A stretch of 64,000 bases of DNA, from NCBI GenBank assembly GCA_002839375.1, contig PGXY01000005.1:248001-312000 (forward strand), read 5' to 3'. Source of the stretch: Spirochaetae bacterium HGW-Spirochaetae-1. GTDB lineage: Bacteria > Spirochaetota > UBA4802 > UBA5550. How positions within the stretch are numbered: the stretch's first letter is position 1; each line of letters starts with the position of its first letter. The notes under the pieces were generated by a model. That model made no database searches. It was given only the letters and a program-made list of their open reading frames with translations, and was not told the origin of the DNA. Of this stretch, positions 24,836 through 52,811 are shown piece after piece. Made by a program: the position numbers and the translations under genes.

Positions 24836-26410
24836 TTAAACCCTGAAATATTCCACGGCCTTCCAGAGTACCGTGGCATTGCCCTGCAATGAATCGGCGG
24901 TTGAAGACAGTTCCTCCGCCGATGCCGCATTGCTCTGCGTTACGCCATTAAGCTGGTTCATGCCCTCGCTGATCTGTTCTACGCCCAGGTCCTGTTCATG
25001 CGAGGCCAGGGATATATCATGGATCAGGTCAGCAGTCTTCTGAATCTTCGGTCTGATATCACCTATAAGTTGACCGGCTTTATCGGAAATTTTCTGACTT
25101 TCAACCAGCAAAGCAGTGATTTCCTGCGATGCATTCTGGCTTCTTTCCGCCAGAGTACGTACTTCTCCGGCCACCACGGCAAAGCCCTTCCCGTGTTCCC
25201 CGGCCCTGGCAGCCTCGATGGCGGCATTCAAAGCCAGCATGTTTGTCTGATATGCAATATCCTCAATAAATTTTATTTTTCCATTTATCTGCTTCATGGA
25301 TTCCACCGTTCTCATGACGGAAACGCCCACCTCTTCGGATTGTTTGGCCGTTTCCTGGGCAAGGTTGTTTGTATCATTCGATTTATTGGAGTTTCCCGTA
25401 ATACTGGCCGCCATTTCCTCAAGGCTCGAGGATATTTCCTCCAGGCTTGAAGCCTGCTCATTGGCCGAGGATGCCAATTCCGATGCTGCGTCATTTATCG
25501 AGGAACTGCTCATGCTTACCGCCTCCGAGGCCTCTTTGACATTCCTTATCACATCACGAAGTTTCCTGATGAGGCTGTTGGCATCGTAACAAATGGTCCC
25601 GATCTCACTCGAGGAAATCATGGGAACTCCCTCTATCAGAAAATTTCCCTGCTCCATTTCCTTCAAAGCCAGTGACAGGACTGTAGTGCTTACCTTAATA
25701 TTTTTTGTCATAAGATAAAGCAGCGAGAGTATAATGAGCAGCGAGAAAAGAAGAATAAAGGAAACATGGAGAGCCATATTTTCCAGAACAATAATTTTTG
25801 AATTCACAAGATAAAGCAAATACCCGAAGATAACAATCGGAACAAGAGCAACGGAAAGACTGAGGAGAAGAATACGCACATTCAGAGGAAGGCTCTGATA
25901 CTGACCGGGAACAAGTACCGCATCGCGAATGCTCTCTTCGGAAAGAAGACCGCCCAAATTGTTTTCACAATTGAAATAAGAAATAGTAACATTAATAAAT
26001 CCCATTAGGGGAACAATCAGCAGAAGGGGTACCAGATTTTGCAGGGAAAAACCCGCCTGAAAGTATACCAGAGTGGGTATGACAAGTATTGAGAGGGTCC
26101 AGTTTAAGATTAAAATCTTCGCGAAGGATAATGGAAAATTAAGTATTTCGCTTTTAACAAGGCCTCTGTCATAATTCTCATCATAAAAATGGGCGACCAT
26201 TCGCGACAGGAGACGACGCGACCTGACGGTCTCACAGATAATGGCAAAAATAATAAAACCACTTACATCGACAAGAAAATAGAAAAGCTGGGTTGATGTA
26301 AATCCTCCCGTAAAATAGACAAAATAAACAGCCAGTGGGACTGCCAGTAAATATGAATATAAATCAGTTGTCATTACCGTTGATTTATATAGTTTCCCTG
26401 TTGTTATCAT
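24836..26410 (-). CDS. Methyl-accepting chemotaxis protein, six-helix, no large periplasmic domain
   Basis: The product has 524 residues. The start at 26410 follows GGAGG; an ATG at 26446 lacks one. Three pairs of membrane helices occupy the first 240 residues or so with only short loops, so the sensing part is in the membrane. The cytoplasmic signalling domain follows, with the receptor tip NMLALNAAIEAARAGEHG KGFAVVAGEVRTLAER pattern that binds CheA and CheW. Acidic/Gln positions flanking the tip are candidate methylation sites. It indicates that the organism is chemotactic. No che or flagellar genes lie in the window. Confidence 0.93.
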   Translation of the reverse strand: MITTGKLYKSTVMTTDLYSYLLAVPLAVYFVYFTGGFTSTQLFYFLVDVSGFIIFAIICETVRSRRLLSRMVAHFYDENYDRGLVKSEILNFPLSFAKILILNWTLSILVIPTLVYFQAGFSLQNLVPLLLIVPLMGFINVTISYFNCENNLGGLLSEESIRDAVLVPGQYQSLPLNVRILLLSLSVALVPIVIFGYLLYLVNSKIIVLENMALHVSFILLFSLLIILSLLYLMTKNIKVSTTVLSLALKEMEQGNFLIEGVPMISSSEIGTICYDANSLIRKLRDVIRNVKEASEAVSMSSSSINDAASELASSANEQASSLEEISSSLEEMAASITGNSNKSNDTNNLAQETAKQSEEVGVSVMRTVESMKQINGKIKFIEDIAYQTNMLALNAAIEAARAGEHGKGFAVVAGEVRTLAERSQNASQEITALLVESQKISDKAGQLIGDIRPKIQKTADLIHDISLASHEQDLGVEQISEGMNQLNGVTQSNAASAEELSSTADSLQGNATVLWKAVEYFRV

Positions 26411-26553
26411 TCTATCTGCCTCCTTTCTGTTTAGAAATTTATGCAAGCCCTGCTACACTATTTGATATGCACGTATAAAGCACCTTTTAAACACATAAGA
26501 GAATTTTACTTGTTTATCTACAAAATATCAATAACAATAATATCATCATCTTT

Positions 26554-48980: not shown

Positions 48981-49763
48981 TTACAGGGTATTATAGATGA
49001 GATGTATACCTATTATGAGCAGGGCAAAGATGAATATTTCCTTCAGCCTGCTGTCGTCGATGACGGATGAGAGTATTCGCCCAAACTGCCCTCCAATGAT
49101 AGCACCGACCCAGCAAAGAATCAGTATGGTGATCATTTCTGCGGTAAATGCATGTTCCGTAAAGGTCAAATGAAACACGGAGCCCATGAACGCAATGGAA
49201 AAATTCAAAAAAAGGGCCGTGCCCACGGCATAATTCATGGGGATCTTCAGTTTGCTTCTCATGACAGGTATAAGGAAATCACTGATGCCGATGGAGAGAA
49301 ACCCCGAGAGTATGCCGAAAAAAAGGCCCTGAATTCTGAACCACCACGGGGCCTTTATGCTGCGATCCTCTTCAAGACTGGCGTCGTACTTTTCAGTCTG
49401 AAAAACGAAAAATATGGAAACGGCGATCGTGGTGATACCCAGCATTCCCTTCACGATGCCGGGATTGGCAACGCGTTGATTGAAAAATGCTCCCAGGAGG
49501 ACTCCGGCTGCAATGGGCAAACCCATGCCTGCAAGAAGACGCCAGTAGACCGTCCTATGGCGGATGTTCCAGAAAGTGGCTGAACCCATCCCAACGACCT
49601 GGATGAGAAAAGAAAACATGATGGCCTTGGCTGGATCAAAACCCCTGACAAGTATAAAGTACGGGGCCCAGAGGAGCCCTCCTCCGATGCCTATGAGAGA
49701 GGCCACCGTAGCTATGGTCATACCCAGCGGTATGAGCATCCAGTTATCTAATATGGCATTCAA
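48981..49763 (-). CDS. TauE/SafE-family permease 2
   Basis: The protein has 260 residues with seven or eight membrane helices, of the DUF81/TauE/SafE family. The IGIGGGLLWAPYF segment at helix 1 and the half-repeat ILSGFLSIGISDFLIP are typical. Family members export sulfite, sulfoacetate or other organosulfur anions. Translation appears to start at TTG (49763) with AGGAA five bases before; an ATG at 49739 is the alternative. It is the second permease of the repeated pair at 48981-52112 and follows a HAMP protein gene. Confidence 0.88.
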   Translation of the reverse strand: MNAILDNWMLIPLGMTIATVASLIGIGGGLLWAPYFILVRGFDPAKAIMFSFLIQVVGMGSATFWNIRHRTVYWRLLAGMGLPIAAGVLLGAFFNQRVANPGIVKGMLGITTIAVSIFFVFQTEKYDASLEEDRSIKAPWWFRIQGLFFGILSGFLSIGISDFLIPVMRSKLKIPMNYAVGTALFLNFSIAFMGSVFHLTFTEHAFTAEMITILILCWVGAIIGGQFGRILSSVIDDSRLKEIFIFALLIIGIHLIYNTL

Positions 49764-49817
49764 ATTATTTCCTGTTCCTTTACCGGTCCGTGTTTTTCCT
49801 CTAACAGCAAGACCGTA

Positions 49818-50480
49818 TTACTCATCGATATTGTTACGAAGACTCTCTATGGTATAGAGCACAAAGGTGTCTTTCAGCAATTCGAGCTGTTTAACATCAC
49901 GTGTGAGCTTGTCAATATTCATTTTTATCGTCGACAACCTGATGGGCCGCTCCGCCAGGGCCCCCTGGAAAGTTTCCAGGTTGTCCTGCAGATCAAAAAC
50001 AACGCGCTCGAGCTGAGCCACAACCTCCTGGAGGTTTATGGACAGGTCATTGATGAGATTCCCCAGTATCGCTATCTCATCTTCTGTTTTTATATCTATC
50101 CGTATACTCAGATCCCCTTCGGCCATCTTTCCGGCCTGATCGATCATATACTGCATCGGCGAGGCTATCTGCCATACAAACATGAAAAGCACGACGGCGG
50201 AAACCAGTATCAGTATGAGAATCATGACGATAAACTTGCTCGCCAGGCTGTCCAGGGCCGTGTATATGTGCTCAACGGGACGTTTCCCCTCTTTGATCAG
50301 CATCACTTCCTTCGTGACTTTGTCCCTGTATCGATCGCTTTTAATTTCCCAGAGAAATTCTCCCGCCACAAAGACATTGGCGATGGCAATCAGCAGGAAA
50401 TAGAAAATCATCCTTTTCCGAAGGCTTGTTTTTTTCGGCCTGTTCATCCCGGCAAGAATCATTTTAATCTTTTTCAGCAT
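49818..50480 (-). CDS. HAMP-domain membrane protein without output domain, copy 2
   Basis: The protein has 220 residues. A helix at about 24-43, a short periplasmic region (about 45-80) and a second helix (about 83-105) lead into a HAMP domain (about 106-160; MAEGDLSIRIDIKTEDEIAILG). The C-terminal 60 residues form coiled coil. There is no kinase, cyclase, GGDEF or chemotaxis tip. It is related to the 261-residue copy at 51327-52112. It sits between two TauE/SafE permease genes. Confidence 0.82.
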   Translation of the reverse strand: MLKKIKMILAGMNRPKKTSLRKRMIFYFLLIAIANVFVAGEFLWEIKSDRYRDKVTKEVMLIKEGKRPVEHIYTALDSLASKFIVMILILILVSAVVLFMFVWQIASPMQYMIDQAGKMAEGDLSIRIDIKTEDEIAILGNLINDLSINLQEVVAQLERVVFDLQDNLETFQGALAERPIRLSTIKMNIDKLTRDVKQLELLKDTFVLYTIESLRNNIDE

Positions 50481-50536
50481 CTTCCTTTATCCTTCCGGCC
50501 CGGCATTCCAGGGAGCACAATGGTTCCCTGCAGTAT

Positions 50537-51310
50537 TCAACCCAACAGCCATTTTATACCCGTATATATATAGAAAACAGCAATGACAGAAAGAGCCAGG
50601 GCAAAGATCACTTTAATCAGCCTGTCGGGCAGAAAACGGGACACATAGACCCCTATCTGGGCGCCGATCAGGGTCCCGGTCCCGGTAAAAATCCAGAGAT
50701 CCCACAGAATCAGCCCGGCGTGAAGATTCAGAATTGTTATTACCCAGTCGGCTGTCGCCTCCACCAGGATTGCCGTGGCATTGGCCCGTTTTGTCTTGAT
50801 ATTGAGACCCCTTTCAAGCACGGGCTGCGCCAGCTCGCAGATGCCGCTTCCCGTTGTGGCTGAAAAAAGCCCTCCTATGGGAGGTATCCACATGAACCCG
50901 TATATGTCTTCGATGGGGATATTCTGTTTCTGCCCGAAATACCGCCGCAGGGCATTATAAAGCTGCATGGAGGCCAGGCCCAGAATAACGAATCCCAGGA
51001 CGAGCTTTATCAGGTCCGCCTGAACAATAAGCAATATATGATTCCCCAGTACCACGCCGGGAATGGTGAGCATGATCATGGTAAAACCGATGGGAAGTTC
51101 CACCATCCTGTACCAGAGATAACGCAGCGCACCGCTCGTCATGCCGATCGTTTCCGTGGCTATACCCGTGGCTACTGAATTCTGAATAGGGATTTTCAGC
51201 ACCAGGTTGTAGATGGGCTGAAAGAGAACGCCTCCGGAAAAACCCGATGAATTGGCGAGTATGGCAATCACAATGGAGACGGGAAACATATACCAGTATT
51301 CAAAACTCAT
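50537..51310 (-). CDS. TauE/SafE-family permease 1
   Basis: The protein has 257 residues with seven or eight membrane helices. SSGFSGGVLFQPIYNLVLKI opens the first half-repeat and GLFSATTGSGICELAQPVLERG the second, as in TauE/SafE. It is divergent in sequence from the permease at 48981-49763, so the duplication is old or the genes were recruited separately. It is preceded closely (16 bases) by a HAMP protein gene. AGAGGAAC lies before the ATG. Confidence 0.88.
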   Translation of the reverse strand: MSFEYWYMFPVSIVIAILANSSGFSGGVLFQPIYNLVLKIPIQNSVATGIATETIGMTSGALRYLWYRMVELPIGFTMIMLTIPGVVLGNHILLIVQADLIKLVLGFVILGLASMQLYNALRRYFGQKQNIPIEDIYGFMWIPPIGGLFSATTGSGICELAQPVLERGLNIKTKRANATAILVEATADWVITILNLHAGLILWDLWIFTGTGTLIGAQIGVYVSRFLPDRLIKVIFALALSVIAVFYIYTGIKWLLG

Positions 51311-51326
51311 GTTGTTCCTCTTTTAT

Positions 51327-52112
51327 TCACTGCCCGGACTTCGCGGTTTTTTCATAATTCTCAATGGCCTCACGGATTTCATCCTGGGAAATTTCCGATT
51401 TAATTTTATAAGTCTTGTACATATTGACGAAGGTCTCCAGCGATGAAAGATCATATGTCATCATTTCCAGGAGTACCACGATATCCTGGGCATTCTTCAG
51501 CATCCCCCTGAATTCCGAAACGCGCATCTTTTTCATTTCGATGATCTCATCGCTTTTCTCCTCGGGGATAAGGTCGCTGAGAAGATGCATGGCCGCCCCG
51601 ACCTTTTCCTTATGGCGGCGGATATCCCGTTTCACCTGGTTGATCATATCCAGGAGCTTTTCATTCATCTCATTTATCAGAGTGCCTATCTGCCCGATTT
51701 CGTCATCGGATTTCACGGGAACGCGCACTGTCAGGTCCCCTTCGGCGAGCCGCTTTGTGGCCTCCACCATGCCGTCCATGGGCGAAACAATATCCTTGGC
51801 AAACATGAAAAATGCGGCGACGATGCACCCGCTCACAACAAGGAGGAGCAATATCATCCTGTCGCGGAAATTATGTATGGGTTTAAACACGGCATCCTCG
51901 GAAAAGGCACTTCGTATCCTCTGCAGATCGGCCGACGGCACTTTCCTCTCGATACTTTTCATCAAATTATTGGTTATCTCCATCTTCATGACGGGAGAGC
52001 TCATTTCAAGTACAATCTCGGCGCTCACTGAAATGGAAACGATGGCGATGAGAAGAAAATACAGCAGGAGTTTCTTCTTCAAACGGGACATTTCATTCTT
52101 AAATTTCAGCAT
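51327..52112 (-). CDS. HAMP-domain membrane protein without output domain, copy 1
   Basis: The product has 261 residues. The start ATG at 52112 follows GAGAGG; a GTG directly before it is less likely. Two membrane helices (about 14-33 and 82-108) flank a short periplasmic segment. HAMP follows (about 109-165; LAEGDLTVRVPVKSDDEIGQIG), then a helical region to the C-terminus with no recognised output. It is homologous to the copy at 49818-50480. Linked to permease 1 and, 42 bases upstream, to a phosphodiesterase. Confidence 0.82.
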   Translation of the reverse strand: MLKFKNEMSRLKKKLLLYFLLIAIVSISVSAEIVLEMSSPVMKMEITNNLMKSIERKVPSADLQRIRSAFSEDAVFKPIHNFRDRMILLLLVVSGCIVAAFFMFAKDIVSPMDGMVEATKRLAEGDLTVRVPVKSDDEIGQIGTLINEMNEKLLDMINQVKRDIRRHKEKVGAAMHLLSDLIPEEKSDEIIEMKKMRVSEFRGMLKNAQDIVVLLEMMTYDLSSLETFVNMYKTYKIKSEISQDEIREAIENYEKTAKSGQ

Positions 52113-52154
52113 CACCAGTCCTCTCGAAAAATTCTCCCATGATCCCGATCATAT

Positions 52155-52811
52155 TCATTTTACGGCCCTGCCTTCCGTGACATTCACCGTGTCCGTGAGA
52201 TCGATCTGCATGTATCTGCCGCTTTTAAAGGCACCACTGTTAACCACCAGGCAGCCTCCCAATTCCGCCGTACCCCGTGCTTCATGAATATGCCCGCACA
52301 GGCAGAGCCGTATGTCGTGATCAAGAATGAAGTCCCTGAGCACCTGGCTGCCTCCGCGGAGACCAAGAAAAGTCCTGTCCCGTGTTTTTCGCGGCGGTGT
52401 ATGAGAAACAAGGACCTTTATGCCGGCCGTATCAACGAAACGGTATCCCTGTTCAAGAATGTCGTGGATCTGCTCGTCGCTGTATTCACAGGGCGTATGC
52501 ATGGGCGTTGAATTTGATCCCCCCAAACCGAAAAAACCCGTAGAACCGCTTTGTTTCCCCATTCCATGCACGGAATATCCCCGCTCCTGCAGAAGGTCCT
52601 GGATATCCTCTCCATCCCAGTTGCCGTGAACGGCGATTATATTCCTGTTTTCTTTTTCGATCCTTTCCAGAATTTCTTCGGCCCCCCGACGCGCGCCTGC
52701 ATGCGATATATCCCCGGCCAGGACGATCATATCGGCTCCCTGCAGAACAGGTCCCATTGAATCCAGAAAAGCGTGGTTGCCGTGAATATCGCTCATGAGA
52801 ATAATTTTCAT
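52155..52811 (-). CDS. YfcE-type metallophosphoesterase
   Basis: The protein has 218 residues with the calcineurin-like metal motifs in order: SDIHGN, AGDISH, GNWD and GHIHE. YfcE/MJ0936-type enzymes hydrolyse phosphodiesters, with two divalent metals. It lies 42 bases ahead of the HAMP-permease cluster in the same direction, so it may be co-transcribed with it. The in vivo substrate is unknown. Confidence 0.9.
   Translation of the reverse strand: MKIILMSDIHGNHAFLDSMGPVLQGADMIVLAGDISHAGARRGAEEILERIEKENRNIIAVHGNWDGEDIQDLLQERGYSVHGMGKQSGSTGFFGLGGSNSTPMHTPCEYSDEQIHDILEQGYRFVDTAGIKVLVSHTPPRKTRDRTFLGLRGGSQVLRDFILDHDIRLCLCGHIHEARGTAELGGCLVVNSGAFKSGRYMQIDLTDTVNVTEGRAVK

Follow-up and report, generated by a model that had tools for sequence, protein, structure and literature searches.

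HAMP-only membrane proteins recurrently paired with TauE/SafE-type permeases in Spirochaetota, and their possible part in chemosensory signalling

What could a membrane protein that ends shortly after its HAMP domain do for the permease encoded next to it? The question is raised by a run of genes in Spirochaetae bacterium HGW-Spirochaetae-1, located in a 64,000-nucleotide stretch of DNA (the window; C5:248001-312000 of a 5.2 Mb genome). On the minus strand of the window, positions 48981-52811 encode, in this order, a YfcE-like phosphoesterase, a HAMP protein (HAMP1, 261 amino acids, 51327..52112), a TauE/SafE (TSUP) permease (PERM1, 257 amino acids, 50537..51310), a second HAMP protein (HAMP2, 220 amino acids, 49818..50480) and a second permease of another subfamily (PERM2, 260 amino acids, TTG start, 48981..49763). 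Both permeases are full-length matches to the Pfam family PF01925 (PERM1, E=4e-29, 102 bits, over residues 9-246; PERM2, E=1e-36, 127 bits, over residues 11-255), above its curated cut-off of 32.6 bits. The pairing of a HAMP-only protein with a TauE permease is real, recurrent and close to obligate. We give about an even chance to the proposal that permease and HAMP protein together form an input unit in the membrane, through which the state of transport or of the ligand would reach chemosensory-type signalling.

The linkage was surveyed with sequence profiles in 296 genomes of the phylum Spirochaetota, most of them fragmented and probably metagenome-assembled. HAMP1 is matched in 25 of these genomes and PERM1 in 24 of the same set. 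Each locus was inspected, and HAMP1 lies directly 5' of PERM1 in 24 of 24; the only HAMP1 without PERM1 (genome G013) stops within 60 bases of a contig end, and there are no orphan copies of HAMP1 among the 25 genomes. The pair is spread over seven families, with 21 genera in all. In 21 of the 24 loci at most 20 bp separate HAMP1 from PERM1, and in nine the two genes overlap by 1-4 bp, which suggests translational coupling. The genomes are related, so that the 24 cases are not independent, and a better argument comes from the reshuffled flanks: the genes next to the pair belong to 17 families on the upstream and 10 families on the downstream side, and since these vary while the pair persists, the linkage is more than frozen synteny. 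PERM2 likewise stands beside HAMP2 in 7 of the 9 genomes that carry PERM2. The neighbourhood survey that had been proposed in an initial annotation of this DNA thus finds a recurrent linkage for both pairs.

HAMP1 and HAMP2 are built alike. Two hydrophobic helices (by hydropathy, residues 16-34 and 86-104 in HAMP1, 25-43 and 84-102 in HAMP2) surround a short extracytoplasmic stretch, and the second of them is followed by a HAMP domain (Pfam PF00672; in HAMP1, residues 104-155, 51648..51803, minus strand, 51 bits, E=1.8e-13; in HAMP2, residues 101-152, 50025..50180, minus strand, 40.5 bits, E=3.5e-10) and then by about 70-105 residues, which are helical in HAMP1. HAMP is the only significant Pfam domain in either protein: after it, no output domain of the HisKA/HATPase, methyl-accepting chemotaxis protein (MCP) signalling, GGDEF or any other type is matched in Pfam, and the reading frames stop at 261 and 220 amino acids, respectively. 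The only solved structures matched by the HAMP1 profile are the HAMP regions of chemoreceptors and kinases. The two proteins are homologous over their full length, including the first helix and the C-terminal region, with 31% identity and a profile match at E=5e-25. All five genes of the initial annotation (phosphodiesterase, HAMP, permease, HAMP, permease, on the minus strand) are present, and its description of two related two-helix HAMP proteins with no output domain holds as far as Pfam is concerned. Proteins of this kind are scarce: four genomes together gave 106 HAMP matches, of which eight fall in open reading frames shorter than 300 amino acids, seven being TauE-linked HAMP1 or HAMP2 proteins and the eighth located within 130 bases of the end of a contig.

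The distribution of conserved residues in these proteins is unusual. Among 25 HAMP1 orthologues, mean pairwise identity is highest in the juxtamembrane segment and helix 1 (77%), followed by the HAMP domain (68%) and helix 2 (56%), and falls to 31% in the post-HAMP region and to 20% in the extracytoplasmic stretch, the least conserved part; PERM1, in the same comparison, has 69% overall. In HAMP2, too, the juxtamembrane segment and helix 1 are the most conserved region (67% mean identity in 10 homologues). This segment (HAMP1 residues 9-39, 51996..52088; HAMP2 residues 18-49, 50334..50429; both on the minus strand) carries a common signature, Y-F-x-L...V-x2-E-x3-E-x2-S, in which Y18-F19 and E36 are found in all 35 HAMP1 and HAMP2 proteins, and position 32 is Glu in 33 of the 35. 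As a control, seven further HAMP receptors encoded in these genomes were compared across four genomes: helix 1 identity is 85% in HAMP1 vs. 37-59% in the control receptors, and identity after HAMP is 35% in HAMP1 vs. 42-72% in the output region of the controls. With helix 1 conserved and the C-terminus not, the pattern is inverted relative to usual receptors. It suggests, at the level of sequence, that helix 1 of HAMP1 contacts a conserved membrane partner, and we propose the permease as that partner because it is the sole constant candidate; helix 1 would then be a putative permease-binding helix. The core residues of the HAMP domain itself (P111, G125, D126, L127, D137 and E138) are kept in 35 of 35 proteins, which argues against degeneration of HAMP1 and HAMP2. 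When the helix-1 peptide was searched against plasmids there was no match, and one spirochaete relative came out of a peptide-pattern scan over genome contigs.

What might receive a signal from such a protein? In half of the loci, 12 of 24, PERM1 is followed by a gene for a protein of about 560 residues (7TM-MCP), in which about seven membrane helices make up the N-terminal domain and an MCP signalling domain lies at the C-terminus. The signalling domain has the usual tip sequence, and no HAMP domain is matched in this protein by Pfam, so that HAMP and output domain are on different polypeptides. A 7TM-MCP profile recovers the same 12 genomes, with 12 of 12 copies directly 3' of HAMP1-PERM1; two of the copies run into a contig end, and in genome G005 the rest of the gene is on another contig. 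Two more loci (L033 and L043) have a soluble MCP-like coiled protein after PERM1. The seven-helix domain taken alone is found by profile in 14 of 374 genomes, and 14 of 14 copies are beside a HAMP-TauE pair. Pfam gives no significant match for it and NCBIfam a weak one, to MASE3; we regard this distantly MASE3-like domain, seen only beside HAMP-TauE pairs, as a candidate new domain family. In the genome of the window the profile found no 7TM-MCP orthologue, and its place is occupied by HAMP2-PERM2. The window also encodes an unrelated MCP of 536 amino acids (24836-26446, minus strand), which has only the MCP signalling domain in common with the 7TM-MCP of the relatives.

A diverged version of the same arrangement occurs in two genera (genomes G203 and G185, loci L119 and L120). 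It is a triad, in which a HAMP-only protein is joined by a permease of yet another TauE subfamily, the third, and by a 7TM protein that lacks the MCP part (L119:5716-6738; L120:5857-6888). Both triads are preceded by cheA, two cheY-like receivers, a cheX/cheC-like gene and another receiver, and are followed by a receiver protein; neither cheA nor cheY was seen beside the pair in the window. A match to a known partner kinase system, which the initial annotation had counted against its proposal, is thus found in part, for the diverged members inside a cheA/cheY cluster. The HAMP proteins of these triads do not have the helix-1 signature of HAMP1 and HAMP2, so that a different permease subfamily goes with a different helix 1. 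In all, there are three HAMP subtypes, each paired with its own TauE subfamily.

HAMP2-PERM2 is a second pair, inherited separately from HAMP1-PERM1. There are ten HAMP2 and nine PERM2 genes in the surveyed genomes, seven of each adjacent to the other, mostly at unrelated genomic places, and HAMP1 beside PERM2 or HAMP2 beside PERM1 is never seen, save where the two pairs are in tandem (the genome of the window, and locus L026 of genome G006). The initial annotation took the two pairs for a duplicated module. The HAMP proteins are indeed related over their full length. The permeases tell otherwise: PERM1 and PERM2 are 23% identical, and a tree of TauE proteins places PERM1 with permeases from plasmids of cyanobacteria and haloarchaea (support 100/96), apart from PERM2. 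As PERM1 is nearer to those permeases than to PERM2, the pairs are not copies of one unit, and simple tandem duplication is contradicted by the permease tree, in which, however, the outgroups were retrieved with PERM1 as the query, a sampling that favours the grouping of PERM1 with them. The choice is between a very old pair and the joining of related HAMP proteins to different permeases.

Several other genes have been observed next to members of the second pair. At L046:5210-6556 and L047:4501-5852, permease-less HAMP2-type proteins have, as the next gene, one for a secreted protein with a CIA30 domain (74.9% identity between the two genomes). Elsewhere HAMP2 or HAMP2-PERM2 is followed by an MTAN/futalosine-hydrolase-like nucleosidase with a weak PNP_UDP_1 match (families f38 and f41; L058:4310-4918, L059:3814-4401, L060:6694-7335 and L061:3577-4167); at L058 the nucleosidase comes directly after HAMP2, and PERM2 is elsewhere in the genome.

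With 7TM-MCP often located 3' of the pair, and the diverged triad in a cheA/cheY cluster, we favour an input role in a chemosensory-type pathway. The mechanism that we envisage has the adjacent TauE-type permease as the ligand-recognising or transporting subunit of a membrane complex, and the HAMP protein as its signal-converting subunit. The HAMP protein would probably dimerise via its HAMP domain and dock on the permease through the conserved first membrane helix, and a change in the permease, with substrate bound or in transport, would be passed to helix 1, then to the HAMP domain and to the helical C-terminus, which would act on a separate chemosensory-type partner. In half of the related loci this partner is likely to be the neighbouring 7TM-MCP. 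In the genome of the window, which has a second pair instead of a dedicated 7TM-MCP, the output partner would be one of the other MCPs. A more specific model, which we advance tentatively, is that of a split permease-based chemoreceptor, where a TauE-fold permease recognises the ligand, the HAMP-only protein converts the signal, and a third, 7TM protein, whether it has an MCP tail or not, passes it on to CheA; the genome of the window would then represent a two-pair form without the dedicated third protein.

Several observations weigh against this input role. The chemosensory link is not universal, as the genome of the window and 11 other genomes with the first pair are devoid of 7TM-MCP. The post-HAMP region of HAMP1 has low sequence conservation, whereas an element in touch with a conserved partner would normally vary less. 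Within the second pair, HAMP2 occurs without an adjacent permease at three loci (L046, L047 and L058), and PERM2 without an adjacent HAMP gene at two (L062 and L063). AlphaFold models of HAMP1 and PERM1 (three sequences each) were unusable, with mean pLDDT (the per-residue confidence score of the model) of 46 and 47.

Some of the same evidence can be read in the opposite direction, as in the initial annotation, with the signal running toward the permease: the periplasmic stretch or the C-terminus of the HAMP protein would sense, and helix 1 and HAMP would set permease activity. Obligate pairing and a conserved helix 1 fit such gating equally well, the window and several relatives have no output gene next to the pair, and a helix bundle formed by the C-terminus could act as a sensor in the cytoplasm. 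However, the extracytoplasmic stretch is short and is the part of HAMP1 that varies most, and the MCP-type and cheA/cheY neighbours in the relatives point to a signalling output; we consider gating unlikely, if the most serious of the rivals.

A humbler role, that of an assembly, stability or oligomerisation partner for the permease, with HAMP as a dimerisation coiled coil devoid of signalling, agrees with translational coupling, with matched inheritance and with a C-terminus that drifts, but leaves unexplained both the association with MCP and CheA genes and the invariance of the HAMP core (P111, G125-D126-L127, D137-E138), which is expected for a signalling HAMP. We find it rather doubtful. 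It is improbable that the two proteins are mere neighbours, having a promoter or regulation in common and not acting together. The pair is, indeed, often placed amid otherwise housekeeping genes (pyrBC is 3' of it in family f1), but it stays intact while its flanks change completely, the paired subtypes never mix, and the conservation of helix 1 suggests a membrane partner.

What the permeases may recognise is hinted at by their relatives and neighbours. The TauE/SafE family is common, being present in 14 of 14 control genomes, and PERM1 stands out among the TauE relatives compared by four polar residues of its own (E184, D188, N177 and N195); a profile search of solved structures gave no match for PERM1, and no characterised protein is among its close relatives. 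Its best plasmid relative, and the nearest outside spirochaetes that was found, is 28.7% identical and resides on a Picosynechococcus plasmid (L116:360-4074), where it adjoins genes for molybdate binding and a molybdate ABC transporter, a weak hint of another oxyanion. In two genera the gene directly 3' of PERM1 is an ArsR-family regulator, nearest to the YgaV/NolR/BigR type (L053:7854-8153; L054:4642-4935), that scores below the BigR equivalog cut-off. Operons of the BigR type encode a TauE-related sulfite transporter (PMC5823870), and the ArsR gene is thus a weak hint of sulfur. The initial annotation named sulfite or organosulfonates as possible substrates. Sulfite or sulfonate export, tried as a reading of the gene context, was rejected, since the ArsR gene, in two genomes, is the sole sulfur hint, and no sulfonate-degradation genes were recognised next to the pair. 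That PERM1 and PERM2 are plain sulfite/sulfonate exporters and the HAMP proteins functionless remnants of sensor kinases, as the family name TauE/SafE and the BigR/YgaV-like neighbour might suggest, is highly improbable, given that decayed proteins would not keep invariant residues across 25 genomes or stay with the permease in every locus, that PERM1 has its peculiar polar positions, and that sulfonate-degradation genes were not recognised beside the pair. Also observed, in the genome of the window (contig C12, L049:4984-5839) and at L101, is a half-length TauE match (profile positions 1-112), with an internal stop codon and a second short open reading frame adjoining, possibly a split two-gene permease or a decayed one.

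The first gene of the run, for the YfcE-like calcineurin-type phosphoesterase (52155..52811, minus strand; Pfam Metallophos_2, E=8e-17), is 5' of HAMP1 in only 5 of the 24 loci and is probably a loose associate of the HAMP-permease genes. In five genomes (L034, L035, L036, L039 and L040) a homologous protein is encoded 5' of HAMP1, and the copy at L035 is a radical-SAM/B12-binding protein.

Neither the obligate pairing of a HAMP-only protein with a TauE permease nor the 7TM partner was found described in the open-access literature; a search for HAMP with TauE or sulfite exporter returned only one Leptospira transcriptome paper, on unrelated genes, and chemosensory-TauE searches gave nothing relevant. 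The view of the initial annotation that no system of this kind is known to have been described agrees with this. TauE/SafE permeases are widespread and mostly have no assigned role, and if one subfamily is the sensing half of a complex, some of them would acquire a testable function. Studies of HAMP domains have dealt with linkers within a single chain; were a HAMP domain to act between separate proteins, conversion and output would prove to be separable. The 7TM domain seen only next to the pairs would add a new family of sensory domains. If true, the proposal offers a new answer to how the state of a transporter reaches a chemosensory kinase.

Transporter-coupled sensing is known in principle, and it is the HAMP-only/TauE pairing and the 7TM partner that appear to be undescribed. 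Transporters act as co-sensors in the cases of DctA or DcuB with DcuS, and of LysP with CadC (PMC6978683). There, as proposed here, a separate signalling protein in the membrane learns of the substrate from a secondary transporter, but DcuS and CadC carry their own output, a kinase or a DNA-binding domain, whereas the HAMP protein has none and its transporter is of the TauE/TSUP family. In Ks-Amt5, an ammonium transporter is fused to a histidine kinase, explicitly without a HAMP domain (PMC5764959); it likewise uses a transport fold as the sensory input of a phosphorelay, yet it is a single polypeptide of the Amt family, and in our case a separate HAMP protein would do the converting. TauE/SafE exporters, including TauE of the bigR operons (PMC5823870), resemble PERM1 and PERM2 in the full-length Pfam match; the described systems have no HAMP partner, in contrast to the pairs discussed here, and PERM1 differs from them in its conserved polar residues. 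Canonical chemoreceptors, with transmembrane, HAMP and MCP parts in succession, have in common with the spirochaete proteins the conversion of signal by HAMP, as proposed here, and, in the relatives of the window's genome, the MCP signalling domain, but unite HAMP and MCP on one chain, whereas here they are on different polypeptides and the permease is an obligate third part.

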